A DNA stretch of 64,000 nucleotides from Diprion similis (lineage: Eukaryota > Arthropoda > Insecta > Hymenoptera > Diprionidae), in assembly GCF_021155765.1 (NCBI RefSeq), contig NC_060112.1:12834001-12898000 (forward strand). The letters run 5' to 3'. Below the pieces are notes generated by a model. The model did not search any database. It was not told where the DNA came from and worked only from the letters and a program-made list of their open reading frames with translations. Every line of letters starts with the position of its first letter. Positions within the stretch are counted from its first letter, which is position 1. A program made the position numbers and the translations under genes. Of this stretch, positions 3,231 through 58,200 are shown in pieces.

Positions 3231-6200
3231 ATGGAGCTGTCACAAAGAGAATCGCTTATCTCGTCGGAACCTGGTACAAAAGGTTTCGATTTATCCGCCG
3301 GCGGGAATTGGATATATCCGCTTAATTACCAATTCCGAGAATACCAATACACTATAACGAGAAATGCACTTTTTAGTAATACTCTTGTCTGTCTGCCTAC
3401 TGGTAATATATTAATATATCTGTATGTTTTTTTTTTTTTCTACAATTTAATGTCTGCATATAAATACACAAGTTGTACTTTCCGCAAAGAGGAATGTAAT
3501 TTGTTTTGAAAATATCATTTTTTTGTCATTGATGTGCGTTGGGAAGTAAATCAAGATTGACACTCAGTAGTACGTTATTGCACGGGCAATAAAACAAAAG
3601 TAACGGATGCCTTGCATTTTCAGGTTTGGGGAAAACTCTAATTGCTGCTGTTGTGATGTATAATTTTTGGAGGTGGTATCCACAAGGAAAAATAGTGTTT
3701 TTGGCACCTACAAAACCTCTCGTGGCGCAACAAATATCTGCTTGTCATAACATCATGGGAATTCCTAGCTTTGACACAATCGAACTTACTGGTAATGCCG
3801 AATGACAATTCATGATGAAGTAATCTATGCTCACTTATGCTTCATAAATAATAATTAGCAATAATGGTTAACAATGAGCACAAACTAGATCGTGTCTCAG
3901 TTTTGTGCAGAGCAGGGCGAGTTAACTTTGATAATTGAAGTAATAAAAATTCATTTACAATATAATTATTTTCTGAAAAATTAGTGTTCTCAAATTGATG
4001 AAGAAGTATTGGCTAAAAGAATAGAGCTTCAGACTTGTTAAGTCATTTGCGTTTAAGGATTTATCAGTAATTAATAATAGTTATACAGAAATGAATCAAA
4101 TTAAGATTTTTCGAAATCTCGTTTTCTGACCAGAGTTAGTCAATGATCATCCTTCTCTGTGACTAATTCTTTCTATAAAATATGTTGTTACAGGTTCAAT
4201 GAACCCGAAAAATCGAAAGATAGCTTGGTTTAAGAAACGTGTCATATTTGCTACACCACAAGTATTTCAGAACGATTTGGATAAAAATATCGCACCTGGG
4301 GATTTAGTCAGGTGTGTGGTAATAGATGAGGCTCACAAGGCTTTGGGTAAACATGCGTACTGCGAGGTATGTATACAATGTGACATGCCAAGTGCCGTAG
4401 AAATTGGTGAGGTTCATTGGCCAATACAAATATATCTTGTAAATATAGTGAAATACTTGAAAAAAATATATTTACTTTCATACCAGTCGTTATTGTGCAA
4501 AAATTGAGTTAAATAATCATGCGTATTGTGGACCGCTCTTTATTCATAATATTTTTTGTTCTACTAGAGCCTTCGATTACTGCGTACTCAGAGTTCTTGC
4601 CATCGTATTTTGGCACTTTCTGCCACACCTGGTAGCAGAATAGAAGATGTTTGCCAGGTATGTATCGAGTAGTCAACTTCAAAGAGTCTAGTATTTCAAT
4701 GCGAATATTGAAAGGACTAGTAAATCAGAAGATGTGGTGGATTGCTGAGTCTATTGGTTGTTACAATCGAGCTTGTAGGTTTGGAATGAGGCAACATTAA
4801 TTCTTAATTTTATCATATGACAGGTGATACAAAATTTGTGCATATCAAATTTGGAATTGCGAGATGAAACATCACCTGATATAACACCTTATCTCAATAA
4901 GAGGCAAATGGACATTATTCTGGTACCGTTAGATGACGACCTATCCAATTTCAAAGAAAAGTATGTTTCTATTATGGATCGTTACGTTCGTCTTCTCGTT
5001 CAGTACAATATACTGAAAGGAAATGCAAACGCAATTAGCAAAGGAAGGGTTAGTATTTGCAATAATTCTGCGCAGATGATGATATAACGGAAATATAAAA
5101 TTTCTATTTGTTATTTACTTTTTTGTTCTCTGTACTTATTTAAGGTTTGTAACCCTATTTTCGTAGATATTCTATCTGTATAAAGAATTTAAATCAAAGA
5201 CCGAAAGACCTGCGAACTATGGTCAAATTATGAAAACGATGAACAGGTGCATGTCTTTGTATCACGCCTATGATTTGATGATTCGACACGGCCTTCGCGC
5301 ATTTGCTTCATTTTGTGAGAGTACGTTTCTACTATTTTTTCTTTAAAATTACTTGTAATGTTATTGAAACTTTGCAATTGTTTAAAAATTAAACAGTGAA
5401 GAAAATTCGACATGATAATTACAGCGTTTTGGAAATCATTATCTGTTCAACAGCTCACTCCAATGATTTCTGGATGACTGAGGAACCTAGCTTACAAAAA
5501 TTGCTCGAAGAAATCTTATTATATCTGGGACCATTTCCAAATATTTCTCCCTTACCAGACGGCAGTGTGAATGAAGTACGTATATACGTTATTATTGAAT
5601 GATATATTTAAAAATGTTATTTTCATGCCTGGAAGTCTATCCAATTAACTGAATATTTATCACTTATTTTAAGATTCCAAAAGACGTGGTTTTTGGCCAT
5701 ACTAAATTTCATAAGCTTAAGGCCCTGTTATTGGATCATTTTAATAAGTTTGCTGCAAGACGCGAGGAGACAAGAGCCATCGTTTTTGTTGAGGTTTGCA
5801 CTGTTAACATAATTGTAATTCAATTAAGCAAGAATTTAGACCTTGTTATTTAAACTGTAAGAAACTACAAGTTGACCTTTAATTGTCTAGTACTTTGATG
5901 ATGAATTTACTTCTTGTTTTACTACTTTTAGTATCGTGACAGTGTAAATGAGGTGTATGTCGCCCTGCTGCAACTGAAGCCAATACTTCGACCAAAAATG
6001 TTTGTTGGCCAAGCAGGGCAAAAGCGTAAACAACAAATGCAAGCGATGGAGGCATTTCGAAGCAATGAAGCTAATGTTCTTATTTCTACATCAGTGGGTT
6101 AGTAAAGATTTATTTTCGAAGGAGTTCGAGATCTAATTTGCTAATATTATATGAAGAAATCGATTGTTACAGGCGAGGAAGGTCTTGATGTTGGTGAAGT

Positions 6201-9200
6201 AGATCTGATCGTATGCTTTGACATTTCGCAGAGCTCACCTATTCGTCTTGTACAAAGAATGGGACGTACTGGTCGCCGTCGAGATGGTCGAATTGTAATG
6301 CTTGTTACTGATGGCAAGGAACACCAGGTAATGTCATAAATACTGTAATTAAGAATATTCGTATTGAATGTATGTAAATATGAGATATAGGATCATTTGT
6401 GTGAAAAAATTTCTCTCCCCATAAAAATTTCAATTTTTTCTTCAATCAACACCCCTTGAAAGGATTTTCTCCAAGAACTGCATGGTCAGATTAAGAGATG
6501 CTACATTTATTTGAATTTTTTCCATTGCTAATAAATCTCGATTAACTTTTTCTGCAAGCAATCAATAGTGTTTTCGATATACAAGGTTGTCAAATATAGT
6601 AAATCTGGCTTAAACGCGAATTTCGAGCATAATTCATTGCAGTTGAATGAACATGTTCCGTATTGTGGTTTACTCATGAATTTGCAGGATAATTTATTGA
6701 TTGATAACGTGATACCAATTTATTCAACAGCCTCGGGTGTCCAAAGCACCATTTATCACTTGGGGTAAAGGTTACTTATGTCTAAATAGGTGAAGTTGAT
6801 TTCTTATGTGCTAATCCAATTAAAAATAATCAAACATGATGCAGCAACTCGAAATCTCAACGTACGGAGCAAACTATGGCTTCATGGGGTGGAAGCTAAA
6901 AAAAAAATTTAATTTTAATATGTTTATTGTGTAAGTGTATCCGTTACAGTCGCTCAAGTCAACCATAGCCACAAAAGATTCTTTGAACAAAAAGGTGTTC
7001 CATTCGAGCAACGTAGCTTCTGCTCTGTTTACGGAAAGCCCAAGGATGGTACCTCCAGAGTTTGAACCGGAATGTTCTAAAATGCATATTGAACTTCAAC
7101 CCAAGACACTGACTAGCAAAGGTAAAAGGAAACGCAAGGAAATGGAAAATGATGTACCCAAAGAGAATACCAAAAAAGCAGCAGGGGTAAAAAATAATCC
7201 AGGTCAGTGTAGAATAAAAATAATGCATAAAGTTGTATGCACATTTTTACGGATGATCGAAAATGGACTCTATTTTTTACTAATACTGCAATAATTTTTT
7301 CAGTTCTATCAATGCAGCATGAAGCTGAGAAAGCAAAGTCTAGCCAATCATCGATGTTACGATTTCTTAAAAAATCGCGTTCCAATGAAGATTGTGGTAA
7401 AGTTTCAAATCATGTAATGCAATCTAGCCAGTCAAGTTCATCAGCTGTACAAGTCTTGCAATCAGACTCCGTAAAACTCCTTACTGATGATACTGCAGCA
7501 GTTGAATTTCTAACATTATGCGCAATCAAGGCATCAAAGTTGGAAGGATCATTAAAGGAAAGTAACCGGATAGATGAAACTTATCTACCCTCATCAATAC
7601 ATGATGATGTGGAAGATTTCTTCAATTATCCAGTACCTGATTTAAGCATTTTGAGTTGCATTGCATCATTAGAAGAATGCACAGAGTACAGGATACCTGA
7701 AGTTACTGAAGACTGTGAAATGGACCAACTTGACAATGAAGTTTATGTGATGGAACGCAATCAACCAAATCTCCTAGAATATTGTGATCGTAACAGTGCT
7801 CCAGCAGCCGGGGAGTTTAACTATGAAAACCTATTCGATGATTCTAGCAAATCCAATGAAACAATATTTTTTGATGATAGAGAAATGGAACATTCGAGTA
7901 GGGATTTGAAAGAACAGCTGGAGAATACAGAGACACATAATTTTGAAAACGATGATAAGGTAAATGATGGTGAACAAGCATCTTTGCAGGATCAAGGAGA
8001 TGATTGGTATGCAGATTTACTTCAAGATGATTTCTTTGATTGTATCTCTCAAGACCTCGTGAACAAAGCCACAGATGATCAGAAGCAGGAATGTAAAGAA
8101 AATAATGAGCCCCTCAGTAAAGGCTGTTTTGAAAGCATTTTAGATGAATCTTCAGATAGCGAGATTCCTTCCAGCCAAGGTGAGCTAGATACAAAGAGGA
8201 ACATGAGAAAATCAACAAGAAGTTCTATTGATGACACAATATCTGTAAACCAGAATGAATCAAGCATTGAAACAAATAGAGAGAAATCAGTAACGAGTTA
8301 TGTGACAAAAACTGTTCTAGAAACTCAGGATGATAATCATCAATCCATCATCAATATTAGCCAGAGTTCCAAGCCTTCAACGAGTCAATTACGTAGAATT
8401 GGTTCTGAGAGTATTCTGAAACCGCAAATGCTAGTTAATACACATGACACTAACGAATCTGTGGATATTAATAAACAATTGCATAGTAATGAAAAGGAAG
8501 GATCATGTGCAGTAAATGTAAAGGTTCCTGAGTCACGATTTTTCCAAGAGAATAAGTTTTCGGTCTCAAAAAGTGATATCCATTCTGGAAGCAACAGTCT
8601 TAACCCAGCTGCAGGACTAGCTAATGTAAAAATTGATCAACTGAATAACAGCAAAGTACATGCTAATTATTATTCGGACGAGGATGACGACGTGGTGTTC
8701 ATCGAAGAAATAAATATGACTGCAACACGTGATGAGAGCAGGAGAAATTCTATTAACCAATCACTGAACGAACGATATAATTATGATGAAGATGAATTAA
8801 TAATCGATAAGGAAGTTACATGGACAGAAAAAAGTAATGCCAATGAAACAGATGCAGACACAGGTGCTTCCTCGATAACGCAGATCATTCAGCTAATTGA
8901 AAATAGTAGTTCTAAAGGATTAGATTTGAGTAAAATAAGTAAAAATACTCAAAATATATCAAATTGTTACAAATCAAACTTAGTCAAAGCATCGACAATG
9001 GTACGGCCAAAGAGAGATTTATCACCATTTGAGCAGAACGTACCGAAACACAACCTAAGCGATACAAGTACCATTGTTGCCTCGCATTACTTCAGTGGGA
9101 ATGACAATATTACAAAAAAGTCAGATGCTGTTTCAAAAAGTGAAGAACCACTAGAGATTGACTTAGACTTGTCTGACATCAATTGGGATGACGGTTTTGG

Positions 9201-10914
9201 AGGTGGTGAGCCAGTGGCAGATAATAATCAGGTCAGTGATCAGCTAGATCAAAAAATAAATGGACCGCACGCAAAGGCTGATTTTAGAAATCAGTTATCT
9301 GATAAGTGTGAAGAAAGTCTTTTCGTAAAGAAAGAACAATCGCCTGAAAAAACTTCTGATAGCTTGATAATTCTTTCAGAGAATACTGTGGACGTCAAAA
9401 AATCTTCATCAGAAATAATAGTTAATTTTAATTTAGGTGATTGGGAGTGGGATAGCGATTTTGAAACACCTGCAAATCCAGTCGAGAGTTTAAAGCAATT
9501 TAATATGTTAAATATTAGATCATCGCTGAACAAGGCTGATGATACCATTGCTTCAAGGTCTGCAAGTAATACATTACTTTCTAAATTAGGAAAATCAGGT
9601 GCAGTTTCGAGCTCTGCACCACCCCCAAAAAAAGAATTAAGTACTAAAAAAAGCAAAGTATCAAAGTCGAGTGAAAGTAGGAGATACCACTTTGATGATA
9701 CTTTGGATTCTGAAGATGACTTTTTTCTCGAATCTCATAGCATAGGTAAAATGGTTCGAGATATTCGGCCAAAAACTAATTACGTGTTGACCTTAAATAA
9801 AAATCCCACGATATTGAAAGGGTCGAAAATATCATTGCAGGAAAAAGAGAATATTGAACCAACTTTAGGAACTGAACTCACGAGTTCATTGCCAGCTAAC
9901 TCCAAAGACAGAAACATTAAAAAAAAGCCTTATTTTATAAAAGGTACTGTTGTCAATCCAAACAAAGTTACTGCGCTAGACCGTAATTCGCTTAAGAGAA
10001 AGAAATTTCGGGATCGAAAACGAAAAAAATCAAAGTTTATAGATTGCGAGGCTGAAGTGTCTTCTGGTACTACAAGTGGATCTTCTGGAGAGGATACCGA
10101 CTTAGATGGCTTTATAAGTTATACTCAACAGGGCCCTGAGACAGTTGATATGCATACACACTATTTGCAATCTATTAAAAGTGTTCACGAAACTGGTACC
10201 TTTCATTTTAAAAAACCTAGAGTTTTTGTTCCTGATGATGAAGTATTCTCCCAAGCTGTGCCTGAGGGTGAGAACTCTACGTATTTACATGTAAGTTGGT
10301 TTATATTGACGTTTTATGGTTTCCCTCAATAACTAGAGTTGTGGCATCAGATAGGACAAATAATAATAATCCTGTGTTGTAAATATCATATTTTTTCTTT
10401 ATTTTACTTATAATTTCAGTGTCAATATATGTTGCCAAGCTACGAAGTTTACAGTGAACTTATTACTGCAAGTTTCATTTTCTAAATAATCTATTACATT
10501 TTCAATTCCTTACATTTTGTAGTGAATATTTGATCACGATAAAAATTATTAATTCAATTATTAGCTGAATAATGATCGAGAGTTATGAATACCTGTGATA
10601 TTTTAATGGATTAGAATTCATTGTGCAGTATATCGAGTTCCTTTGAATAGTTAATTGGTTTACAGGATTCCTTCTGTGTGAGCGGTGGCGAAGACGATCT
10701 TTATGCAGAGTCATATGACGACTCTTTTCTGGAAGTAACAGAAAAAATATTGGACTGTAAGAAGCGAAAGTATTCAAAACATGGTAGAGTGCCTAGTTTG
10801 AAGAGAAGAAAAGTAGCACAAAAATTGTCAGATAGCAATAGCAGTGAAGATGAGACTGAAAATCTTAGAAAACAGATTCTGGACGAATCGATGCTTTATA
10901 AGAGAAAACAATGA
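3231..10914 (+). CDS. FANCM: FANCM / Mph1-type DNA translocase (Fanconi anaemia group M), 13 exons
   Basis: FANCM remodels stalled forks and branched DNA in the nucleus. Exons are 3231-3402, 3624-3791, 4194-4366, 4568-4657, 4824-5048, 5167-5320, 5397-5575, 5674-5793, 5932-6097, 6173-6327, 6950-7202, 7304-10290 and 10666-10914. All have GT..AG borders and compatible phases; total 5,091 nt, 1,696 aa. Motifs: Q-motif-like region [10 protein letters not shown], Walker A LPTGLGKT (55-62), TPKPLVAQQ-type motif ([10 protein letters not shown]), DEAH (158-161, [11 protein letters not shown]), SAT (189-191), and motif [10 protein letters not shown] (510-517). After the helicase core comes the FANCM-typical SPRMVPP segment. 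One 3 kb exon then encodes a long acidic, Ser-rich, presumably disordered region. The protein ends at YKRKQ. I see no ERCC4 nuclease/HhH2 domain, which vertebrate FANCM carries at its C-terminus; Drosophila FANCM also lacks it. The start is the first ATG in the frame that continues into the helicase. Confidence 0.95.
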
Positions 10915-26660: not shown

Positions 26661-29600
26661 ATGTTGATGTACACAGTATTGTTCGTCATCTGCCTCTGCG
26701 TGACTTCAGGTACAGATTGTTGCATTTCATACGCGTGAACACGACGGGACTGTCCATGACCTGAATCACATTGCTTCTTTTTTGTTGAATTAAATGCTTT
26801 CCGCGTTGTTACATCGCAATCGCATTGCACAACTCCCTCGGTCGAAAATTGCTTCGTATAAGCTTTTCGAGTTATGCGCATAACGGTGTAATTCGACGGA
26901 AGTCATTACCGATTTATATGTATAAATGTACTTTGTTTTGAATTTGACAACAGCTAGTGATTAGGAAAGGTCCGATTCTGTCGTTATTTCGAAATACTGA
27001 TCGGGATTTTATAGCAGTTGTATAGGATTGCCGTATACTTATGGAATATCGGTTCCTAAAAAGGTTTCCTGCGTGGCACCTGGTCTTAACGGGTTTCAAA
27101 GGACTCGCCCATACGACTGCCACAGAATAATTTCACTATAGTGTAACTTTTCTATACAAAATTTGCGTCTTACGATGACTTGCGGGTATTTCGGGCATTT
27201 GGTATTCGAACTGTCTCCATAACTCCTTAAGACTTAACGTCGTTTTCAGTTGATCTCTTGCTCATTCTGCAAAGCGGCAAACATTGACCTTGTGGTACTT
27301 ATGAAATTGTCACCGATCGGCAAATAATAACCAAGTCCCAGACAGCTTAAGAAAAGCTGTATGAACACCGCGAAATCCGGTAATAATTGAAATTAATCTT
27401 GTAATTCCTTAACGCAACGTTGTGTTTATGTGATCGAACGACGGCGAGAGGAAGGAATGCTTAAGGTTATTGTTATAAAAGGCTACTAGAAGTTGAGTTA
27501 ATCTCATGTAGGCATTGATTACTAGATCAACTCTTTTCACAGCCACAGATGGCCGTAAATGACGCGGAAAGATAATGAATAAAATTTTTCATGACAAAAC
27601 TCCAATCGAGTGCTTGGAGGCCTGTCACGGTTAGCCTTGACTCGACGCTGAATGCTTCATAAACTGGGATTTCCCAAGGCGCACAACACATGACCCTCTG
27701 GAAGACCGCGTTCCATTTAACTCGTTTCTTTCATTTATTTTTTATTATCCGGTCGAAGAATTTCGCTCTCTCTCTCTTTCTCTTTCCGCTTGTTTTCCCT
27801 CCGACAATCAGATTATATTAATCTCAAAATTGCTATGGGGAAATCCTTTTAGAATGTTTTATAGCTTGGTATTTTATTTTTCAGTTGCACCTGCGATAGA
27901 TCCAAATGACGCCGATAGATTCAACTTCTTCGACATTGAACTTCTACAGGTATAAATATCGGAAAAACGCTTTAATCACCAAACCGAATCCAGGTAATGT
28001 GTTGACACAAAGTCGTTCATTTATGTAATCTGTTATTGTAAGGCTCTGACTGGGGAAGGCGAGGGCAATATTGTCCTGGCTCCGGCAAGCGTGAAGGCAG
28101 CATTGACCGCTCTGGTTGAAGGAACTGGTGGCCGTACTGCCAGCCAAATCCGTGACACGTTAAGGCTACCCTCGGACCCACGGAGCCTGAGGTTGGCTGC
28201 GGAACGTTCACTGGCTCCCTTCAAGGTGAGATACCTACATGCCTCGGATTAACTCAGTCTTACAATTAGATATTTGTGGACGAAAGTCATTTGGAGAGTT
28301 ACCGTTCATCGGCACTTACGGAATGCAAACCAGCGTCGAATTGTGCGACTAAAATGCAACCGATTGATTTTTGTTCAAGGTAAAAAGGGTCGGTGCTCAA
28401 TTGGATCTTGCTACACGTATCTGGACCGGAACTGACGTCAACCTTACCCCAGAGTACAGTGAGATTTTGCGGCGACACTACGATAGCGACGTTCAACCAG
28501 TCAACTTTGTCGACGCTCTGAGAACATCTGATTTAATAAACAACTGGGTTCGCGAAAAAACTAGGGGACACATTCAATCCATCGTCGAGCCTGGTAAGAC
28601 CTCTTTCTTTTGCAATTTTACATCGGGGTTAATATGATCTGGATAGTTTCGAATGGTCATTAAACATTCGCAATGTCATGATGAATGCCATCGGTACATT
28701 TTGCTGAGAGGTTATTGATTCAGCAAATACATTCGGGAGGCGACCAAAAATGACCTTGTTGTTAGCTGCAACAAGTCAGTGTTCATTGGAAATACTACAG
28801 ACACGAGATTCGTATTACATTCCGTGAAATGAATAAAAACATGACAAGAAGAAACCGGTTACTCGGCCCATCTCCATAAATATAAAATTTGATGACATAA
28901 TGTTATTACATATTGACACTGAAATGTCTAACAACAAGAGTGATGCATGCTTTTTGGTGTACCCTAAATGGACTTGAAAGTCATATAATCATGTGCGTAA
29001 AAGATACTGAATTTTTCTTCTCAACTGATAACAATCAACATCGCAAACTTGTGTGTACCAGTAGAATGTCAAACCGTACACAGGTTTCTTCAGCAAAAAA
29101 TTTTTTGCATAAAGAAATCTTACCGAATTGCAAGTTACACCACACTGTAAACATCGGTAAAACGTATGTAATTACAGGCAGTCTTGGTCCTCAAGTGAGG
29201 CTACTACTGACGAATGCGTTGTACATGAAGAGCACCTGGAAGATAGCATTCGATCGGAGTTTGACCAGATCCAGATGTTTCCAGGTGCCAAATGTCGGCT
29301 GTCAGAAGACCTATCTTATGGAGAGCCTCGGATATTATCCGTACGCCTACATTCCGTCCTTGCAGGCTGAAGCGATACAGATTCCCTACTCGGTGAGTGT
29401 ATAAAGGACTTTTTCAAATATTCAAACTTTCAGGAGGTACTTGAATTCTTATCCTCGCTCGACTTTGAGTGTTGAGATTGTCGTATGATCAAACGTTTAA
29501 ACTTTAATATTTCTAGGATGGGGAACTCTCTATGTTGATTCTACTTCCTGAGCGCGTCGAGGGCGGACTACAAGCGCTCGTTAAGGACTTGTCTCACACT

Positions 29601-31785
29601 TCGCTGCCGCACATCGTTAATAGTCTACAAGAAACGGAAGTCGTCTTGTTTATGCCGAAGTTCAGCATCGATACCAAGATGAATTTGCAATCAACTTTAC
29701 AAAATGTACGCTTACCGTGATACGAAACCACGAGTATTAAACATTCGCCTGTATGTTCAGACTCACATCAGAAAAGGAAGACCTTGGTTAAAATAGAAAA
29801 AAGGTCGAACGAACTATGATTCAGAGTTTCATTCTGGCTAAACAGATTCTGCTTTTTATTTTATACTCATAACCGGTGTGAGTTTGTGTCGGCATTCGAA
29901 CAAGGTACTGAATGTCAGTGAGTATAATAATCATTTAGAATCGACGATACCTGAAAAATTTCGCACGGATGCGTGATGACATCATCGAATGCTAGAGGTA
30001 TCCTGTTATCGAGGAATTTTTTCGCATTTAAATGTGGTCTAGTCAATCAGCACTGCCTTGTATCGATTAAAAGAAAATAATGAAAGCTTTAGTGGGCGGA
30101 ATTTCATTTCATAAAACTTTCTTTTCCGCAGCTTGGAATCGTAGACCTATTTGGCCTGAATGCCAACATTTCCGGAGCTGCAACTAGCCCTCTTGAGGTA
30201 GGGGATATACTGCACAATGCGAAGATCGAGGTGAACGAGGAAGGAACAATTGCATCAGCACTTACAGGTAAGCTCTGCAAGAGTGTATAATACATTCACT
30301 ACAGCCAACGAACAGAGGGCAAGAAAATTGTCGAGCTCTGTTTTATCCAGTCGTTTCTATTCGCGACGGTCTCCCGCTATATCCATGAAGAAACAAAATT
30401 TATCCAAAGAAACTATAAAACAAAGTAACATACCGCATAATAAAGAAGTTGCAATTAACGCCAATAGATAGTGTCGAGCCCAAACGAAAGCTCGCGTCTG
30501 AAGTTTGCCGATAAAAAATTGACTTCTGTTCGATGTTTGCTCGCGTCAAACTTACCTGGCGCAAAGGCTTACCGTGATCAAGAAGGCTGTTCCTTCGAGG
30601 CGAGGCTCTTCCATTGCACATCGGTTGAGTTGACCCTTGCGATTGCCCCAAACGCGGGCACTCGTGCGTACAATTTTTGAGTGTTGGGACTTGCGTTCGC
30701 GCGGTCCCTGATATTTCCATAGTAAAACTATCATATTTTAATAGTCAAACTATGAGAACCTCGCCTGTAGCCTCGCAGGCTGTGTTTTTATAGGAAATGT
30801 CTCGCTTATCCGACATAATTCCGCAAAAGTTCAAGTCTCAGTAGCCACTTCATCCGTTTTTCATAGATTGCAGTAACCAGAAGTATACCTCTTTTCATAT
30901 AATTACATACATTAAATAATTCTGCTTCTTGATACGATGTTATCTATAATGAGAAAACTTATCACATATATGAACGGATGAATAATTGTCCGTCATAACA
31001 AAGATTATATTACATGTACCTGAGCTGTATGTATGTGTATACGTGTATAAACGTTGTTCGAGATCGAGTAGAGTTATTATTTGAATTCATTTTCTAGTTC
31101 GAAATGTTTCGATAGCAAAATATTATTCAAGGCGTAACTGCTTGTCATTTCGCATTGCAAACCGATTTAACTTACCAACATACCTAATGGATCACGTTTC
31201 TAGGCTTAAAGGCTGTTAGAGAGGAATTATACATACAACGATGAATTGACGATCCGTTACAAAGTGTTCGTTCTTTATGTTTTCTTTTCTTGACTCTTCG
31301 TATCGTCTAACACACACAATAATAATTCGCTGATCATCAACCGCGTTGATTGATCACTAAAACGTCGTGTATGGCGATAATTAATTAACCATTGCCTACT
31401 CTCACTGAAGAATTTTTCGTCTTTGCAGGCTATAATCGGGATTTTTAGTAATTACTGACCGATATATTTTTTCGTCTATTACCTAAGAATTATTCTAAGC
31501 GATTCCCTTTTGATTAAACTGCAGAATAGAGAATATTGACAGAAGCACAATTGAATTTGGACGTTTACCTGAACATTTACTTCACTCAAAACTTTTAACC
31601 TATATGTCTAATAATTGAATATTCGCTTTTTCTAAGGAATTGCGGTTGTACCACTGATGGGTTCCACGGTTCAGACTTTCCGAGCCGATCGTCCGTTCAT
31701 ATTCATCCTGCGGGACGGGGCCTCAGGTGCTGTGCTTTTCGCGGGACGAGTCGTGAACCCAGACTTGGTGGATTCGGGAGCGTAA
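26661..31785 (+). CDS. Serpin 2: secreted serpin, eight exons, 399 aa
   Basis: Exons are 26661-26709, 27885-27949, 28043-28225, 28380-28593, 29178-29392, 29517-29705, 30132-30267 and 31637-31785 (1,200 nt, phases consistent). Exon 1 encodes the signal peptide (MLMYTVLFVICLCVTS). Serpin landmarks: GNIVLAPASVKAALTALVEGT, NNWVREKTRGHIQSIV, VRLLLTNALYMKSTWKIAF, and the C-terminal RADRPFIFILRD...GAVLFAGRVVNPD. The hinge is EEGTIASALT (341-350). Counting from P17 E341 places P1 at L357, in the sequence VVPLMGS (M358 is the alternative), suggesting a chymotrypsin- or elastase-like target. Three successive exons have the same sizes as in serpin 1 (183, 214, 215 bp) and the loop intron is at the same phase-1 position, so the genes are tandem duplicates. 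Length is normal for the family. The last intron (1.37 kb) contains a U1-like snRNA sequence on the same strand. Confidence 0.94.
30548..30711 (+). ncRNA. U1 snRNA-like gene or pseudogene, full length (164 nt)
   Basis: The sequence opens with AAACTTACCTGGCG, matching the U1 5' end (canonical AUACUUACCUG) that pairs with 5' splice sites. Colinear U1 landmarks follow: loop I GTGATCAAGAAGG (usually GAUCAYGAAGG), loop II CATTGCACATC (U1A site, usually AUUGCACCUC), GAGTTGACC, CACTCGTGCGTACAATTTTT with an Sm-like site, and a final GGGACTTGCGTTCGCGCGGT stem. Its 164 nt equals canonical U1. Some stem changes are compensated (A-U replacing G-C in the long-range helix), others are mismatches. Loop I and loop II each carry one change in the protein-binding sequence. 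There is no A tail or target duplication, so it is not an obvious retrocopy. It sits inside the last intron of serpin 2. It is either a diverged U1 variant or a decaying copy. Confidence 0.85.
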
Positions 31786-38877: not shown

Positions 38878-39202
38878 GTATCTAATTAATTATCGCTGCT
38901 CGGTGTGCAGCTTCTTATTTTTTTCTAAATTTACTACGAACTTTGATACGCCTCCGCGTCATTTATTAATATTTTCTTATGCGAACGAGTGCACGCAAAC
39001 GTGTCGCAGAGAAGAATAGGATCATATAACGATTAATTATAACAAATTAAAAAAAAAAAAAACATTTCAAAATTACCATCGAGAGACTGCATGTAAACGG
39101 CATACACGTGATCGGATAACTCGCGTGTTTGAGAAAGATTGGAAGTGACGGAGAGATTAAGGAGAGAACAATCACTTCCTGGGATTTTTTGGAAAGCCGA
39201 AA
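37571..39202. other. GC-rich upstream region of the ChaC gene
   Basis: From about 37,800 to 38,680 the sequence is clearly richer in GC and CpG than its surroundings, which fits a promoter region. The 180-codon minus ORF at 37,565-38,107 is Arg/Ser-rich and looks like a composition artefact. At 38,664 a short ATG frame (MGIA) ends at a GTGAGG donor. It could splice in phase 0 to an acceptor just before the ChaC ATG (GGAAAG at 39,196), so it may be an alternative first exon. A CA microsatellite occupies 38,847-38,875. Confidence 0.45.
38847..38875. repeat. CA dinucleotide microsatellite
   Basis: About 14 perfect CA units. Confidence 0.9.
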
Positions 39203-42200
39203 ATGAACGCAGGGACTGGACTTTGGGTTTTTGGATATGGATCCCTCTGCTGGCACCCGGGGTTCGATTTCGAAAAGAGCCTCACCGGGTACATCAGGGG
39301 CTTCACCAGGAAATTTTGGCAGGGAAATGTCACCCACCGAGGCACCGCTGACAAGGTACGTTCTCTTAGAATACCCTTAGTTGATACTCGCGATTTTACT
39401 GACAATTATACGTGCTCAATGTTCGATATTGCGATTTCAGTTTCATTTGCGATTTTGTGTTTAATCGTAAGTTACTGGCTTCCAATCGTAAACCAGACTT
39501 AGCTTGCTGTTGGACTTTTCAAGCTTTCGTGATTATAAAATGAAGTATGTTCATATTTGTTCAGAGCTTCTAGTCAGATCAATTCTCACAGATGAACTAC
39601 GATATATATATATAGTACTTCTATCTCGACTTTTACTTCTCGTCAATTTGTGAACTTTGGTCTATACAGAGATTATTCCACCTTAAATCCGAAATCCTGG
39701 ACTCGAGCTTGATCAAGGCTGTGAGAATAAAACAGATGTAACGCGAAAAATAAAAATTTCTGACGTTTGTACACTGCATTCACGAAAGTATACGGTCCAT
39801 TCATTTGATATTTCTGTAGCGCTGATATCTGACTTAAACGGCGAGAAGATTGTGCTGATAATTTCACTTTCCAGGAAAGCTTTAGCGTTCAGAAATGGAG
39901 CAGTAATCTTTCGAATTGTTTGATAGCGGAGTAACGTGTTTTACACTCACGTAGACGACGAGGGTCAGAATGAGCTTTGAAACGCCGCAATGCGTGAACG
40001 TAAACACGAGTCGCGACATTTGTATGTATACCTATAGTTTCTGCGATTTAACAGACAGAGTTAGACGACTGAGTTAAAGATAGACAGAGAGAGGAAGACA
40101 GGACTGCGCGATTTGAAAATATTTCTTAGCATTTTATTTGCATATGTATGTATACAGAAGCAATATCTTCGCGGGCACGTTTTCAAGGCGTGCCAGGATA
40201 CACAAGCATGCACGAGTATATAAATATGCTATATACATGTATAGTCACAGCGGAAACTATAGATAGCGGAGGAGTTATATATTGGGAGAAAATTTGTTCT
40301 ATAAACAAAAGACTGACGGTGCGAACACGTGTTGGCACGAAGAAAATTATTTCGCAGGAGAGATCGCTGCGCGATTCGATCGCTGATTGCCAAGTGCCAG
40401 ATTGCTTTTGTCTACTTGACGTGCGTATACATTATACCTATGCACACATACGTGCTTTATATCTATGCGAATGTTACGATGTCGTAAATTCCATCCCGTC
40501 ACGTTGATATCGCACTCTGTTCGACTCCAGAGTTTACCAACAATTTGATACAGTTTTTATATTTAGTTTTCAATGCTTTCCCCGAAGTTGAATGTTTTTG
40601 CGCCAAGTGGTATGTAGTTAGTGCTTCAGCAATGGCGATCCTCGTATATTATCGTGGTATTTTATTTCATTTTTTACGTGAACTGTACATGTTTTTCGCG
40701 TAGTTTGTTTTACCCGATTATTCTGAAGTCTCCTTAATTTGACCTTAATTTAACCGCAGATTCATCTCGCGTGCGTGCGTGCGTGCGTGTGTAAAGAGTA
40801 CTATATACTTGATTGCAAATGTTGATCAATTCAATGTTTTTATATTGCAGTGAGTAACTTGACTGTCGGGTCATTGCGTATTTGCAAAAAATTTAAAAAT
40901 CCAGGGTTTGATTGAATAACGTATACTTGAATATAACGAATAATATATCATACGTTTGACATTATTCTGCATTAGCAGCTCGGAAAAAGAGATTTACTAT
41001 AATATCGTGATACTATATCACTTAGAAAGTTTATTGTTTCAGAATTATTGGTGTTAATGCCAAAACTAGCAAACGACGTATAGTGTCCACAGTAAATTTT
41101 CACCCTTTGGAATAGTTCTTACGTCACAAAATGACCTCCTAATTGCTCAGTAAGCTTGACTAAGATCTCAGAGTGTTATTGACAATCGTTAAAGACCGTT
41201 TAAGAAAAAATGATATTGACCTTGTGTAAAATAAGAACATGAATTACCACCGAGGTTGCAAAGTTTTTCGGCTTGAGTACACCGGACAAAATTAGAAGAA
41301 CAAAATGTAACTGGGTCAAGTTGAGCGGAAACTTTTATTTACAAATTCACCTTCTGCGTGGATACCACAGGCTGAATGTTATCGGTTTCGATATTCGTTA
41401 TTACAGTATAGTGCCTACACACAGTTTTTGTCATTTGATTTGGAAATGATAATTATCGTCTCGGCAAATGCTGTTGGGTAACATTGGTAGTCCAGAGTTG
41501 GACCCGATTATAGAAGAACGTGAATTGATTTTGTGGTTTAAGGTGTAAATGAAGATAAAATAGAATCCTAGAGCCATTAACGCTTCCTTGTTTTTTTTCT
41601 CTCTATTTGAAGCTTGAATGCTAATTAGTAACTATTACGGAAAGTTTGCGAACAAAATATTTTGTTTTATCTCATTTTGTGTGAAGCGCATTCCAAATCA
41701 ACTCATCAGCGCCTCATTCACCCACCGATGTTTTTACACGCAAATCAATAAGTAAATCTCGTCTTGAAATATTATATGGCACTAATATTTGTCAGTACAT
41801 ATTGTTATATGCATGCGTACGAAAATTTCCCTGTCACTGTGTGACAATACTTTAAAATGCCAGTCTAGCATAGTTGAGTATAGTTTTCACCCTCGCATTT
41901 CAGCTTCTGAAAAATGAATCCTACAACAACTTATCACTTAGGTATATTTACAAACAAATTGATATTATCTTGAATATGTGGTAAAGCCTACTCGCACTGA
42001 TTGCGTGCGGTTGAAATGAAAGCTTTCAGATGAGGAAAAAAAAATAATTGTAGTGCAAAAATTCTTGACTTATTAACTTGGCATGAGAAAAATGTGCAAT
42101 ACCTATAGTATATGAGCTGTGCAGTGTCAATTCTCTTGTGTGACATGTGTAGGTTTATTCTATCTCGATGTCAGGTTCAACTGTATAATGTCTTGTTATT

Positions 42201-49295: not shown

Positions 49296-52200
49296 GCTCT
49301 TTACGACGTATTTATGCTAGAAAAATCGTTTCGACGCAGTCCGAATGCGCTGCGAGCAACGGATCAAAAGTTACAGCCAAAAAACGAAAGACACAATTTC
49401 TCAATTTTTCTGCTGCTGGTCTTTGCGTCGTCATTTCTCTGCTGTTGGTCCTACGCATTTTTTCTTGTGTATTCTGAGTTCCTGGGCGTCCAATTCATCT
49501 AGAAAGGGTCATGCAAATCGGTTCCGAGACGAAAAGTTCTCGGCTTCAAGAGTAACCAAAGAAGTGAGGCGAACCCCTTTGGATTTTTGGCGAAAATTTC
49601 GACAACTTTGGAAAGTGCTGCAATTGATTCTTTAGGGCACTATTCCGACGTAATTTTGCGAGAGAAATCGATTGAGCGCAGTCCCAATACGCTGCGAGCA
49701 ACGGATCAAAAGTTACAGCCAAAAAACTGCAGATTTTCATCGTCATTTCTCTGCTGTTGGTCCGACGCTTTTTTGAATGTGTTTTTTGAGTTCCTGGGGT
49801 TCCAATTAGCCAAGAAACGGTCAAACAAATCAAATCGGAGACCAGAAATTTTTGGCTCCAGAAATCGCAAAAAAAGTAAGGCTAACCCCTTTGGATTTTT
49901 GGCGGAAATTTCGACAACTTTGAAAAGTGCTGCAATTAATTCTTTGGGGCACTATTCCGACGTAGTTTTGCGAGAGAAATCGATTAAGCGCAGTCCCAAC
50001 ACGCTGCGAGCAACGGATCAAAAGTGACAGCCAAAAAACTGCAGATTTTCATCGTCATTTTTCCGCTGTTGGTCCTACGCTTTTTTTATTGTGTTTTTTG
50101 AGTTCCTGGGGTTCCAATTAGCCAAGAAACGGTCATACAAATCAAATCAGAGACCAGAAATTTTCGGCTCCAGAAATCGCAAAAAAAGTAAGGCTAACCC
50201 CTTTGGATTTTTGGCGAAAATTTCGACAACTTTGAAAAGTGCTGCAATTAATTCTTTAGGGCACTATTCCGACGTAATTTTGCGAGAGTAATCGATTGAG
50301 CGCAGTCCCAATACGCTGCGAGCAACGGATCAAAAATTACAACCAAACAACTGCAGATTTTCATCGTCATTTCTCCGCTGTTGGTCCTACGCTTTTTTTA
50401 TTGTGTTTTTTGAGTTCCTGGGGTTCCAATTTGCCAAGAAACGGTCATACAAATCAAATCGGAGACCAGAAATTTTCGGCTCCAAAAATCGCAAAAAAAG
50501 TAAGGCTAACCCCTTTGGATTTTTGGCGAAAATTTCGACAACTTTGGAAAGTGCTGCAATTGATTCTTTAGGGCACTATTCCGACGTAATTTTGCGAGAG
50601 AAATTGATTGAGCGCAGTCCCAATACGCTGCGAGCAACGGATCAAAAGTTACAGCCAAAAAACTGCAGATTTTCATCGTCATTTCTCCGCTGTTGGTCCT
50701 ACGCTTTTTTTATTGTGTTTTTTGAGTTCCTGGGGTTCCAATCAGCCAAGAAACGGTCATACAAATCAAATCGGAGACCAGAAATTTTCGGCTCCAAAAA
50801 TCGCGAAAAAAGTAAGGCTAACCCCTTTGGATTTTTGGCGAAAATTTCGACAACTTTGAAAAGTGCTGCAATTGATTCTTTAGGGCACTATTCCGACGTA
50901 GTTTTGCGAGAGAAATCGATTGAGCGCAGTCCCAATACGCTGCGAGCAACGGATCAAAAGTTACAACCAAAAAACTGCAGATTTTCATCGTCATTTCTCC
51001 GCTGTTGGTCCTACGCTTTTTTTATTGTGTTTTTTGAGTTCCTGGGGTTCCAATTAGCCAAGAAACGGTCATACAAATCAAATCGGAGACCAGAAATTTT
51101 CGGCTCCAAAAATCGCAAAAAAAGTAAGGCTAACCCCTTTGGATTTTTGGCGAAAATTTCGACAACTTTGGAGAGTGCTGCAATTGATTCTTTAGGGCAC
51201 TATTCCGACGTAATTTTGCGAGGGAAATTGATTGAGCGCAGTCCCAATACGCTGCGAGCAACGGATCAAAAGTTACAGCCAAAAAACTGCAGATTTTCAT
51301 CGTCTTTTCTCCGCTGTTGGTCCTACGCTTTTTTTATTGTGTTTTTTGAGTTCCTGGGGTTCCAATCAGCCAAGAAACGGTCATACAAATCAAATCGGAG
51401 ACCAGAAATTTTCGGCTCCAAAAATCGCGAAATAAGTAAGGCTAACCCCTTTGGATTTTTGGCGAAAATTTCGACAACTTTGGAAAGTGCTGCAATTGAT
51501 TCTTTAGGGCACTATTCCGACGTAATTTTGCGAGAGAAATTGATTGAGCGCAGTCCCAATACGCTGCGAGCAACGGATCAAAAGTTACAGCCAAAAAACT
51601 GCAGATTTTCATCGTCTTTTCTCCGCTGTTGGTCCTACGCTTTTTTTATTGTGTTTTTTGAGTTCCTGGGGTTCCAATCAGCCAAGAAACGGTCATACAA
51701 ATCAAATCGGAGACCAGAAATTTTCGGCTCCAAAAATCGCGAAATAAGTAAGGCTAACCCCTTTGGATTTTTGGCGAAAATTTCGACAACTTTGGAAAGT
51801 GCTGCAATTGATTCTTTAGGGCACTATTCCGACGTAATTTTGCGAGAGAAATTGATTGAGCGCAGTCCCAATACGCTGCGAGCAACGGATCAAAAGTTAC
51901 AGCCAAAAAACTGCAGATTTTCATCGTCATTTCTCCGCTGTTGGTCCTACGCTTTTTTTATTGTGTTTTTTGAGTTCCTGGGGTTCCAATTAGCCAAGAA
52001 ACGGTCATACAAATCAAATCGGAGACCAGAAATTTTCGGCTCCAAAAATCGCAAAAAAAGTAAGGCTAACCCCTTTGGATTTTTGGCGAAAATTTCGACA
52101 ACTTTGGAAAGTGCTGCAATTGATTCTTTAGGGCACTATTCCGACGTAATTTTGCGAGAGAAATTGATTGAGCGCAGTCCCAATACGCTGCGAGCAACGG

Positions 52201-55200
52201 ATCAAAAGTTACAGCCAAAAAACTGCAGATTTTCATCGTCATTTCTCCGCTGTTGGTCCTACAGTTTTTTTATTGTGTTTTTTGAGTTCCTGGGGTTCCA
52301 ATCAGCCAAGAAACGGTCATACAAATCAAATCGGAGACCAGAAATTTTCGGCTCCAAAAATCGCAAAAAAAGTAAGGCTAACCCCTTTGGATTTTTGGCG
52401 AAAATTTCGACAACTTTGGAGAGTGCTGCAATTGATTCTTTAGGGCACTATTCCGACGTAATTTTGCGAGGGAAATTGATTGAGCGCAGTCCCAATACGC
52501 TGCGAGCAACGGATCAAAAGTTACAGCCAAAAAACTGCAGATTTTCATCGTCTTTTCTCCGCTGTTGGTCCTACGCTTTTTTTATTGTGTTTTTTGAGTT
52601 CCTGGGGTTCCAATCAGCCAAGAAACGGTCATACAAATCAAATCGGAGACCAGAAATTTTCGGCTCCAAAAATCGCGAAATAAGTAAGGCTAACCCCTTT
52701 GGATTTTTGGCGAAAATTTCGACAACTTTGAAAAGTGCTGCAATTGATTCTTTAGGGCACTATTCCGACGTAATTTTGCGAGAGAAATCGATTGAGCGCA
52801 GTCCCAATACGCTGCGAGCAACGGATCAAAAGTTACAGCCAAAAAACTGCAGATTTTCATCGTCATTTCTCTGCTGTTGGTCCGACGCTTTTTTGAATGT
52901 GTTTTTTGAGTTCCTGGGGTTCCAATTAGCCAAGAAACGGTCAAACAAATCAAATCGGAGACCAGAAATTTTTGGCTCCAGAAATCGCAAAAAAAGTAAG
53001 GCTAACCCCTTTGGATTTTTGGGGGAAATTTCGACAACTTTGAAAAGTGCTGCAATTAATTCTTTAGGGCACTATTCCGACGTAGTTTTGCGAGAGAAAT
53101 CGATTGAGCGCAGTCCCAACACGCTGCGAGCAACGGATCAAAAGTGACAGCCAAAAAACTGCAGATTTTCATCGTCATTTTTCCGCTGTTGGTCCTACGC
53201 TTTTTTTATTGTGTTTTTTGAGTTCCTGGGGTTCCAATTAGCCAAGAAACGGTCATACGAATCAAATCGGAGACCAGAAATTTTCGGCTCCAAAAATCGC
53301 AAAAAAAGTAAGGCTAACCCCTTTGGATTTTTGGCGGAAATTTCGACAACTTTGAAAAGTGCTGCAATCGATTCTTTAGGGCACTATTCCGACGTAATTC
53401 TGCGAGAGAAATCGATTGAGCGCAGTCCCAATACGCTGCGAGCAACGGATCAAAAGTTACAACCAAAAAACTGCAGATTTTCATCGTCATTTCTCCGCTG
53501 TTGGTCCTACGCTTGTTTTATTGTGTTTTTTGAGTTCCTGGGGTTCCAATTAGCCAAGAAACGGTCATACAAATCAAATCGGAGACCAGAAATTTTCGGC
53601 TCCAAAAATCGCAAAAAAAGTAAGGCTAACCCCTTTGGATTTTTGGCGAAAATTTCGACAACTTTGGAAAGTGCTGCAATTGATTCTTTAGGGCACTATT
53701 CCGACGTAATTTTGCGAGAGAAATTGATTGAGCGCAGTCCCAACACGCTGCGAGCAACGGATCAAAAGTGACAGCCAAAAAACTGCAGATTTTCATCGTC
53801 AGTTTTCCGCTGTTGGTCCTACGCTTTTTTTATTGTGTTTTTTGAGTTCCTGGGGTTCCAATTAGCCAAGAAACGGTCATACGAATCAAATCGGAGACCA
53901 GAAATTTTCGGCTCCAAAAATCGCAAAAAAAGTAAGGCTAACCCCTTTGGATTTTTGGCGGAAATTTCGACAACTTTGAAAAGTGCTGCAATCGATTCTT
54001 TAGGGCACTATTCCGACGTAATTTTGCGAGAGAAATCGATTGAGCGCAGTCCCAATACGCTGCGAGCAACGGATCAAAAGTTACAGCCAAAAAACTGCAG
54101 ATTTTCATCGTCATTTCTCTGCTGTTGGTCCGACGCTTTTTTGAATGTGTTTTTTGAGTTCCTGGGGTTCCAATTAGCCAAGAAACGGTCAAACAAATCA
54201 AATCGGAGACCAGAAATTTTTGGCTCCAGAAATCGCAAAAAAAGTAAGGCTAACCCCTTTGGATTTTTGGGGAAAATTTCGACAACTTTGGAAAGTGCTG
54301 CAATTGATTCTTTAGGGCACTATTCCGACGTAATTTTGCGAGGGAAATTGATTGAGCGCAGTCCCAATACGCTGCGAGCAACGGATCAAAAGTTACAGCC
54401 AAAAAACTGCAGATTTTCATCGTCTTTTCTCCGCTGTTGGTCCTACGCTTTTTTTATTGTGTTTTTTGAGTTCCTGGGGTTCCAATCAGCCAAGAAACGG
54501 TCATACAAATCAAATCGGAGACCAGAAATTTTCGGCTCCAAAAATCGCGAAATAAGTAAGGCTAACCCCTTTGGATTTTTGGCGAAAATTTCGACAACTT
54601 TGGAAAGTGCTGCAATTGATTCTTTAGGGCACTATTCCGACGTAATTTTGCGAGAGAAATTGATTGAGCGCAGTCCCAATACGCTGCGAGCAACGGATCA
54701 AAAGTTACAGCCAAAAAACTGCAGATTTTCATCGTCATTTCTCCGCTGTTGGTCCTACGCTTTTTTTATTGTGTTTTTTGAGTTCCTGGGGTTCCAATCA
54801 GCCAAGAAACGGTCATACAAATCAAATCGGAGACCAGAAATTTTCGGCTCCAAAAATCGCGAAAAAAGTAAGGCTAACCCCTTTGGATTTTTGGCGAAAA
54901 TTTCGACAACTTTGAAAAGTGCTGCAATTGATTCTTTAGGGCACTATTCCGACGTAATTTTGCGAGAGAAATCGATTGAGCGCAGTCCCAATACGCTGCG
55001 AGCAACGGATCAAAAGTTACAGCCAAAAAACTGCAGATTTTCATCGTCATTTCTCTGCTGTTGGTCCGACGCTTTTTTGAATGTGTTTTTTGAGTTCCTG
55101 GGGTTCCAATTAGCCAAGAAACGGTCAAACAAATCAAATCGGAGACCAGAAATTTTTGGCTCCAGAAATCGCAAAAAAAGTAAGGCTAACCCCTTTGGAT

Positions 55201-58200
55201 TTTTGGGGAAAATTTCGACAACTTTGAAAAGTGCTGCAATTAATTCTTTAGGGCACTATTCCGACGTAGTTTTGCGAGAGAAATCGATTGAGCGCAGTCC
55301 CAACACGCTGCGAGCAACGGATCAAAAGTGACAGCCAAAAAACTGCAGATTTCCATCGTCATTTTTCCGCTGTTGGTCCTACGCTTTTTTTATTGTGTTT
55401 TTTGAGTTCCTGGGGTTCCAATTAGCCAAGAAACGGTCATACAAATCAAATCAGAGACCAGAAATTTTCGGCTCCAGAAATCGCAAAAAAAGTAAGGCTA
55501 ACCCCTTTGGATTTTTGGCGAAAATTTCGACAACTTTGAAAAGTGCTGCAATTAATTCTTTAGGGCACTATTCCGACGTAATTTTGCGAGGGAAATTGAT
55601 TGAGCGCAGTCCCAATACGCTGCGAGCAACGGATCAAAAGTTACAGCCAAAAAACTGCAGATTTTCATCGTCATTTCTCCGCTGTTGGTCCTACGCTTTT
55701 TTTATTGTGTTTTTTGAGTTCCTGGGGTTCCAATCAGCCAAGAAACGGTCATACAAATCAAATCGGAGACCAGAAATTTTCGGCTCCAAAAATCGCGAAA
55801 AAAGTAAGGCTAACCCCTTTGGATTTTTGGCGAAAATTTCGACAACTTTGAAAAGTGCTGCAATTGATTCTTTAGGGCACTATTCCGACGTAATTTTGCG
55901 AGAGAAATCGATTGAGCGCAGTCCCAATACGCTGCGAGCAACGGATCAAAAGTTACAGCCAAAAAACTGCAGATTTTCATCGTCATTTCTCTGCTGTTGG
56001 TCCGACGCTTTTTTGAATGTGTTTTTTGAGTTCCTGGGGTTCCAATTAGCCAAGAAACGGTCAAACAAATCAAATCGGAGACCAGAAATTTTTGGCTCCA
56101 GAAATCGCAAAAAAAGTAAGGCTAACCCCTTTGGATTTTTGGGGAAAATTTCGACAACTTTGAAAAGTGCTGCAATTAATTCTTTAGGGCACTATTCCGA
56201 CGTAGTTTTGCGAGAGAAATCGATTGAGCGCAGTCCCAACACGCTGCGAGCAACGGATCAAAAGTGACAGCCAAAAAACTGCAGATTTCCATCGTCATTT
56301 TTCCGCTGTTGGTCCTACGCTTTTTTTATTGTGTTTTTTGAGTTCCTGGGGTTCCAATTAGCCAAGAAACGGTCATACAAATCAAATCAGAGACCAGAAA
56401 TTTTCGGCTCCAGAAATCGCAAAAAAAGTAAGGCTAACCCCTTTGGATTTTTGGCGAAAATTTCGACAACTTTGAAAAGTGCTGCAATTAATTCTTTAGG
56501 GCACTATTCCGACGTAATTTTGCGAGGGAAATTGATTGAGCGCAGTCCCAATACGCTGCGAGCAACGGATCAAAAGTTACAACCAAAAAACTGCAGATTT
56601 CCATCGTCATTTCTCTGCTGTTGGTCCGACGCTTTTTTGAATGTGTTTTTTGAGTTCCTGGGGTTCCAATTAGCCAAGAAACGGTCATACAAATCAAATC
56701 GGAGACCAGAAATTTTCGGCTCCAAAAATCGCAAAAAAAGTAAGGCTAACCCCTTTGGATTTTTGGCGAAAATTTCGACAACTTTGAAAAGTGCTGCAAT
56801 TGATTCTTTAGGGCACTATTCCGACGTAATTTTGCGAGAGAAATCGATTGAGCGCAGTCCCAATACGCTGCGAGCAACGGATCAAAAGTTACAGCCAAAA
56901 AACTGCAGATTTTCATCGTCATTTCACTGCTGTTGGTCCAACGCTTTTTTGAATGTGTTTTTTGAGTTCCTGGGGTTCCAATTAGCCAAGAAACGGTCAA
57001 ACAAATCAAATCGGAGACCAGAAATTTTTGGCTCCAGAAATCGCAAAAAAAGTAAGGCTAACCCCTTTGGATTTTTGGGGAAAATTTCGACAACTTTGAA
57101 AAGTGCTGCAATTAATTCTTTAGGGCACTATTCCGACGTAGTTTTGCGAGAGAAATCGATTGAGCGCAGTCCCAACACGCTGCGAGCAACGGATCAAAAG
57201 TTACAGCCAAAAAACTGCAGATTTTCATCGTCATTTCTCTGCTGTTGGTCCTACGCTTTTTTTATTGTGTTTTTTGAGTTCCTGGGGTTCCAATTAGCCA
57301 AGAAACGGTCATACAAATCAAATCGGAGACCAGAAATTTTCGGCTCCAAAAATCGCAAAAAAAGTAAGGCTAACCCCTTTGGATTTTTGGCGAAAATTTC
57401 GACAACTTTGAAAAGTGCTGCAATCGATTCTTTAGGGCACTATTCCGACGTAATTTTGCGAGAGAAATCGATTGAGCGCAGTCCCAATACGCTGCGAGCA
57501 ACGGATCAAAAGTTACAACCAAAAAACTGCAGATTCTCATCGTCATTTCTCCGCTGTTGGTCCTACGCTTTTTTTATTGTGTTTTTTGAGTTCCTGGGGT
57601 TCCAATTAGCCAAGAAACGGTCATACAAATCAAATCGGAGACCAGAAATTTTCGGCTCCAAAAATCGCAAAAAAAGTAAGGCTAACCCCTTTGGATTTTT
57701 GGCGAAAATTTCGACAACTTTGAAAAGTGCTGCAATTGATTCTTTAGGGCACTATTCCGACGTAATTTTGCGAGAGAAATCGATTGAGCGCAGTCCCAAT
57801 ACGCTGCGAGCAACGGATCAAAAGTTACAACCAAAAAACTGCAGATTTTCATCGTCATTTCTCCGCTGTTGGTCCGACGCTTTTTTGAATGTGTTTTTTG
57901 AGTTCCTGGGGTTCCAATTAGCCAAGAAACGGTCATACAAATCAAATCAGAGACCAGAAATTTTCGGCTCCAGAAATCGCAAAAAAAGTAAGGCTAACCC
58001 CTTTGGATTTTTGGCGAAAATTTCGACAACTTTGAAAAGTGCTGCAATTAATTCTTTAGGGCACTATTCCGACGTAATTTTGCGAGAGAAATCGATTGAG
58101 CGCAGTCCCAATACGCTGCGAGCAACGGATCAAAAGTTACAACCAAAAAACTGCAGATTTCCATCGTCATTTCTCTGCTGTTGGTCCGACGCTTTTTTGA

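Follow-up and report, generated by a model that had tools for sequence, protein, structure and literature searches.

A U1 snRNA-like sequence in the last intron of a serpin gene is read here as a divergent U1 paralogue with a promoter element of its own. Set beside the other U1 loci of the genome, it appears to be a long-lived gene that evolved separately and was under selection during most of that time. The full reading is given a little better than even odds, about 0.55: a U1 gene copy with its own upstream snRNA promoter element (PSEA), placed in sense in the serpin intron, long separated, selected for its fold and binding sites, and functional today. The copy does not appear to be a simple dead one, because its own promoter element is kept and its fold seems to have been shaped by selection. 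Table 1 gives the positions of the features within the window, which is the whole analysed stretch of 64,000 nucleotides.

Table 1. Features of the U1-like locus and its host gene, in window positions.
Feature	Position	Strand	Remarks
U1 snRNA-like RNA body	30548..30711	+	RF00003 match to 30710
PSEA-like element AAAGCTCGCGTCTGAAGTTTG	30487..30507	+	core CTCGC 30491-30495, offset -57
5' splice-site pairing stretch ACUUACCUG	30550..30558	+	U1 nt 3-11, consensus
Loop I GAUCAAGAAG	30576..30585	+	consensus
AUUGCAC in loop II	30613..30619	+	consensus
Sm site AAUUUUUGA	30672..30680	+	
Private compensated pair, stem I (17-47)	30564 with 30595	+	A-U, against G-C in six other U1s
Private compensated pair, stem III (98-111)	30645 with 30659	+	G-C, against A-U in six other U1s
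Private C.U mismatch, stem I (25-40)	30573 with 30588	+	sign of wear
Two 22-bp units in tandem	30711..30753	+	starts at RNA 3' end
Serpin coding exons	27885-27949, 28043-28225, 28380-28593, 29178-29392, 29517-29705, 30132-30267, 31637-31785	+	mapped exons, span 27885..31785
Host intron, last of serpin, phase 1	30268..31636	+	

The Rfam U1 model (RF00003) matches 30548-30710 on the plus strand, from model position 1 to 166 of 166, with 119.8 bits and an E-value of 1.2e-29 (cmscan of the window). At this E-value a chance match is rejected, and the curated cut-off of 69.5 bits is cleared over the full length of the model. The match is the only one in the window above an Rfam cut-off; a permissive scan of the window returned 10 further matches, all under their own family cut-offs. 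The covariance model thus bears out the original prediction of a full-length U1, which measures 163 nt by the model and 164 nt with 30711. The predicted T to A change at U1 position 2 is also present, outside the nine-base pairing stretch. A C. elegans U1 primer likewise begins with the A at this position, according to PMC1276797. Phage records contain no match, and a viral collection contains none to the U1 5' pattern; 48 loci of that collection fit an Sm/stem IV pattern.

The 5' pairing stretch, loop I, the AUUGCAC of loop II and the Sm site, which was read against the Sm consensus, are all four consensus in the window copy. Loop I is the site of U1-70K, and AUUGCAC that of U1A. One change had been predicted in each of these protein-binding loops. 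The loop I A is the Rfam consensus letter and occurs in the unrelated U1 L001 (from a contig that was assigned to a bacterial bin and is treated as eukaryotic contamination), so damage to this loop was rejected. The changed base of loop II, U to A at model position 72, lies 3' of AUUGCAC and is common to the sister locus L056. Across 33 essential sites the window copy shows zero changes against L001. Since 14 neutral substitutions would spare all 33 with a probability of 0.04, any loss of function would be recent.

The genome search covered 269 Mb in 60 contigs, with 42 of 2668 first-look candidates scored, and gave at least eight U1 loci, the window copy (L057) included. L051 reaches 142.8 bits, L052 and L053 142.3, L054 and L055 142.2, L056 134.4, the window copy 119.8 and L058 90.9, which places the window copy below six of the seven other listed loci. 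Six loci in the genome, the window copy among them, fit an exact pattern that combines the U1 5' end with the beginning of loop I. The comparison with the other U1 genes that had been proposed shows a divergent copy, 77-79% identical to the six loci L051-L056 and 57% to L058. L052-L056 are mutually 88-100% alike, and the RNAs of L054 and L055 are identical. L055 (the same as L054) and L058 (with a long deletion) were left out of the comparisons of pairs, private changes and loop II and of the simulation, covariation and tree, and L053 additionally out of the neutral simulation and the 33-site comparison. The tree of U1 sequences has weak support (31, 44, 45, 86), and no branching order is drawn from it.

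The other loci carry changes of their own at functional sites. In each of the five loci L052-L056, G34, a conserved base of the U1-70K loop, is lost and replaced by U, A or C, and the Sm site of L052-L055 reads UAUUUUUGG. L051 (G000 C3:16365933-16366096, minus strand; 1501-1664) has the 5' end UAACUUACUUGG by the model, with C9 changed to U in the pairing stretch, forms 43 of 46 pairs, and has its PSEA at -58, or at -57 if the RNA begins one base earlier. L058 (G000 C8:15396263-15396413; 1501-1651) begins with AUACUAACCUGA; its stem II is shortened and its U1A loop deleted, its PSEA lies at -58, its 3' box is good and its stems fold well. As a candidate U1 variant with altered splice-site pairing, L058 stands out more than the window copy does.

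Most of the stem pairs form by model position. The window copy forms 38 of the 46 model pairs, against 39 in L052, L053, L054 and L056, 43 in L051 and 44 in L001. It differs from six other U1s at eight of the 105 sites invariant among them, six in stems and two unpaired (135 and 136). All six stem changes preserve pairing (17-47 from G-C to A-U, 98-111 from A-U to G-C, 83 from C to U and 158 from U to G). The original prediction of one compensated pair among otherwise broken ones was right that compensation exists; there are two full private compensations rather than one, and of the six mismatched pairs, four recur as mismatches in other U1s. Pairs 16-48, 61-79 and 62-78 are shared in this way with L052, L053, L054 and L056, and 21-43 with L056 and L001, for which reason decay as read from mismatched pairs was mostly rejected. 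Private mismatches are limited to 25-40 and 139-165, besides a one-base deletion that opens 97-112. Among seven aligned rows, 17 letters are unique to the window copy: nine in stems with pairing kept, two in stems with pairing broken, and six unpaired. The corresponding kept and broken private stem letters number 7 and 3 in L051, 6 and 1 in L056, and 14 and 1 in L001.

A neutral simulation in which 27-40 random substitutions were placed on six references left a mean of 28.9-30.3 pairs, and 38 pairs were kept in 0.02-0.23% of 20,000 runs each, as an approximate test in which part of the differences arose in sister lineages. In the seven-sequence alignment, the named fold contains 10 pairs changed on both sides, compared with a mean of 4.4 in shuffles (0 of 500 as high) and 0-3 in slid folds; this count characterises the U1 family as a whole rather than the window copy by itself.

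Upstream of the RNA, a search for the snRNA proximal element had been suggested by the original prediction, and a PSEA-like site is present within the expected 40-60 bp or so before the RNA, with its core at -57. Relative to the RNA start, the CTCGC core has the offset -57 in the window copy and L052-L056 and -58 in L058; among the U2 loci L059-L062 the offset is -58 or -59, and for the U5 loci L066 and L068 it is -57 or -58. Variant cores occur in L051 (CCCGC, -58), U2 L063 (CTCAC, -58) and the U4 loci L075 (CCCGC, -58) and L076 (CTCAC, -60). Among 130 upstream positions, the window site scores highest with a 21-base motif built from six U2 and U5 sites, and 1.2e-4 of 127,960 background positions reach its score. 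This motif was trained on 6 of 10 loci, with L061 (motif the same as in L060), L064 (no site) and L065 and L067 (deviating site) omitted, and it misses some likely genes, L065 scoring -1.2 and L054 0.1. The window site is still first of 130 with a motif from twelve U1, U2 and U5 sites (7.0e-4 of background) and, more weakly, with a motif from six sister U1 sites alone (5.2e-3). The PSEA of the U12 gene, CTCGCGTCTAAAG at -58, matches the window sequence CTCGCGTCTGAAG at 12 of 13 bases, as counted by eye after both had been seen. No PSEA was found near the expected place in the U2-like L064 (G000 C4:6939345-6939522; 109.1 bits), with a best score of -6.3, or in the U4-like L077 (G000 C8:14442796-14442924; 52.4 bits), with a best score of -3.1; both are likely pseudogenes. 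L064 has a good 3' box.

The PSEA of the window copy is identical to those of five sister U1s at 7-9 of 17 positions, and the stretch between PSEA and RNA start (-44 to -1) at 10-14 of 44; the element therefore appears to have outlasted its surroundings. In L054 and L055, 35 of these 44 positions are identical. Divergence upstream of -62 was rejected as an age clock, because no more than 32 of 138 positions there agree in register between L054 and L055, whose RNAs are identical; the argument for the persistence of the element uses -44 to -1 instead. The base before the PSEA core is T in all 14 other listed sites and G in the window copy. Nine bases of the element, GCTCGCGTC (30490-30498), recur exactly at 30539-30547, directly before the RNA start.

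The promoter element also bears on how the sequence reached the intron. A processed, reverse-transcribed U1 or a recent DNA duplicate of another U1 gene could explain why a complete RNA body lies in an unrelated intron between flanks unlike those of other copies, yet the PSEA-like site stands at the right offset, the A-tail is missing and identity to the nearest copies reaches just 77-79%, which makes such an origin highly improbable. A retrocopy was rejected on the PSEA, since a processed pseudogene would not carry a promoter. Its hallmarks are absent, in agreement with the original prediction: no A-tail was read after 30711, and no direct repeat brackets the RNA among the repeats listed (12 nt or longer). 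A recent segmental copy was likewise rejected, because a search with the intron DNA matched nothing elsewhere beyond the U1 body and some six bases after it (window 30547-30717).

Several features of the RNA and its 3' flank indicate wear. The private C.U mismatch at 25-40 destabilises stem-loop I, which is missing from the minimum-energy fold of the window copy; forcing it costs 2.9 kcal/mol, against 0.0 kcal/mol in L051, L052, L054, L056 and L001. The free fold is not more stable than shuffled sequences (z 0.30, with 122 of 200 as stable). One base is deleted at the foot of stem III, and both bases at 135-136, beside the Sm site, are changed. Drosophila variant site 134, also beside the Sm site, appears to correspond to a base changed here; a coincidence of both Drosophila variant sites was wrong for 123, which is unchanged here, and holds for 134 only. 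A 3' box motif resembling TCAAACANAA follows twelve U2, U4, U5 and U12 genes at +5 to +16. After the window copy the box is unrecognisable: over 30 nt the best score is equalled by 49% of random stretches and over 60 nt by 71%, and it is the lowest among the eight U1 loci. L051, L052, L054, L055, L056 and L058 have matches as good as 0.4-5% of random stretches, and L053 as good as 19%. A 3' box beginning at AAAAC, at the offset of the sister L056, was tested and dropped.

These defects underlie the strongest competing account, in which the gene worked for most of its separate history, lost its function recently and is in early decay within the intron. The damage to stem-loop I, the stem III deletion, the changes at 135-136, the replaced T of the PSEA and the unrecognisable 3' box all agree with it; the compensated stem changes, the consensus binding sequences and a PSEA that still ranks first do not, and the account is considered plausible though the less probable of the two. 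The original choice between a divergent variant and a decaying copy is accordingly settled in part: mismatches shared with other U1s and the PSEA favour a long-lived separate U1 gene, and stem-loop I and the 3' box still allow a recent onset of decay. With its stem-loop I weakened and no convincing 3' box, the window copy probably yields little U1 today.

The host gene is confirmed as a serpin. Its seven mapped coding exons join into an uninterrupted frame of 382 aa that matches the Pfam Serpin model with 312.8 bits over positions 4-370 of 370. U1 and serpin are both on the plus strand and the RNA lies in the last intron, which confirms the predicted sense placement. The same orientation would suit a U1-like stretch that is no gene in its own right and acts as a structured part of the intron in the serpin pre-mRNA, but such a structure would have no need of a PSEA and no specific evidence for it was found; we regard it as very unlikely. 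Elsewhere in the window, 49428-60329 is taken up by a 312-bp tandem repeat of 35 copies (96% matches), whose plus strand holds long open frames. Positions 4163-4504 give weak helicase matches below cut-off (ResIII 21.8 and DEAD 20.3 bits), 7231-10332 is an open frame of 1033 aa without Pfam match, and 39161-39502 is an exon-like open frame with the start of a ChaC domain (Pfam 70.7 bits).

If the copy is a functional U1 gene, SNAPc would bind the PSEA and RNA polymerase II would make a short RNA independent of the serpin mRNA. Sm assembly would then yield a U1-like particle, which would be expected to pair with ordinary CAG/GUAAGU 5' splice sites. The window copy is 76% identical to a Drosophila U1 sequence. 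Its distance from six paralogues in its own genome (77-79% identity) is similar, with the promoter element and the greater part of the fold retained. Should these divergent U1 paralogues be expressed, they would allow a direct test of whether stable variants of U1 form particles that differ from one another. Titles cited in PMC4291461 describe a diversity of U1 RNAs in the insect Bombyx mori. Literature searches, made otherwise than by organism, found no account of this locus or genome.

The snRNA genes of one species are reported to evolve in concert, and lasting orthologous groups are unexpected beyond a genus (PMC4291461). A broader proposal, which we consider rather unlikely, is that several ancient U1 RNAs (the window copy, L052-L056, L051 and L058) have each followed their own course in this genome, escaping the homogenisation by which the U1 genes of a species usually stay alike, and that they form particles differing in protein content or splice-site preference, with the window copy as one functional member.

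The spacing of the PSEA fits that described for Drosophila in PMC4227766. Five U1 genes of Drosophila give three RNAs that differ by single bases, with no pseudogene among them (PMC10645366). The D. melanogaster genes U1:82Eb and U1:95Cc resemble the present case in that an insect has several U1 genes with variants retained and functional (PMC10645366); the differences there are of single bases, whereas the window copy differs from its paralogues at about one fifth of positions. Human vU1 genes have base changes in the protein-binding regions and the 5' end. They are likewise U1 paralogues with changed protein-binding regions and are made from genes with a PSE and a 3' box; many of them alter the 5' end, whereas nt 3-11 of the window copy are consensus and its 3' box is not recognised (PMC5159530). 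Drosophila snRNA:LU and U5:23D are similarly nested in introns, those of fas2, and LU has both PSEA and PSEB, although these are other snRNAs in another host gene (PMC4053861). Intron-nested snRNA genes and U1 variants are thus already known, and the unusual part of the present locus is the depth of divergence within one genome.
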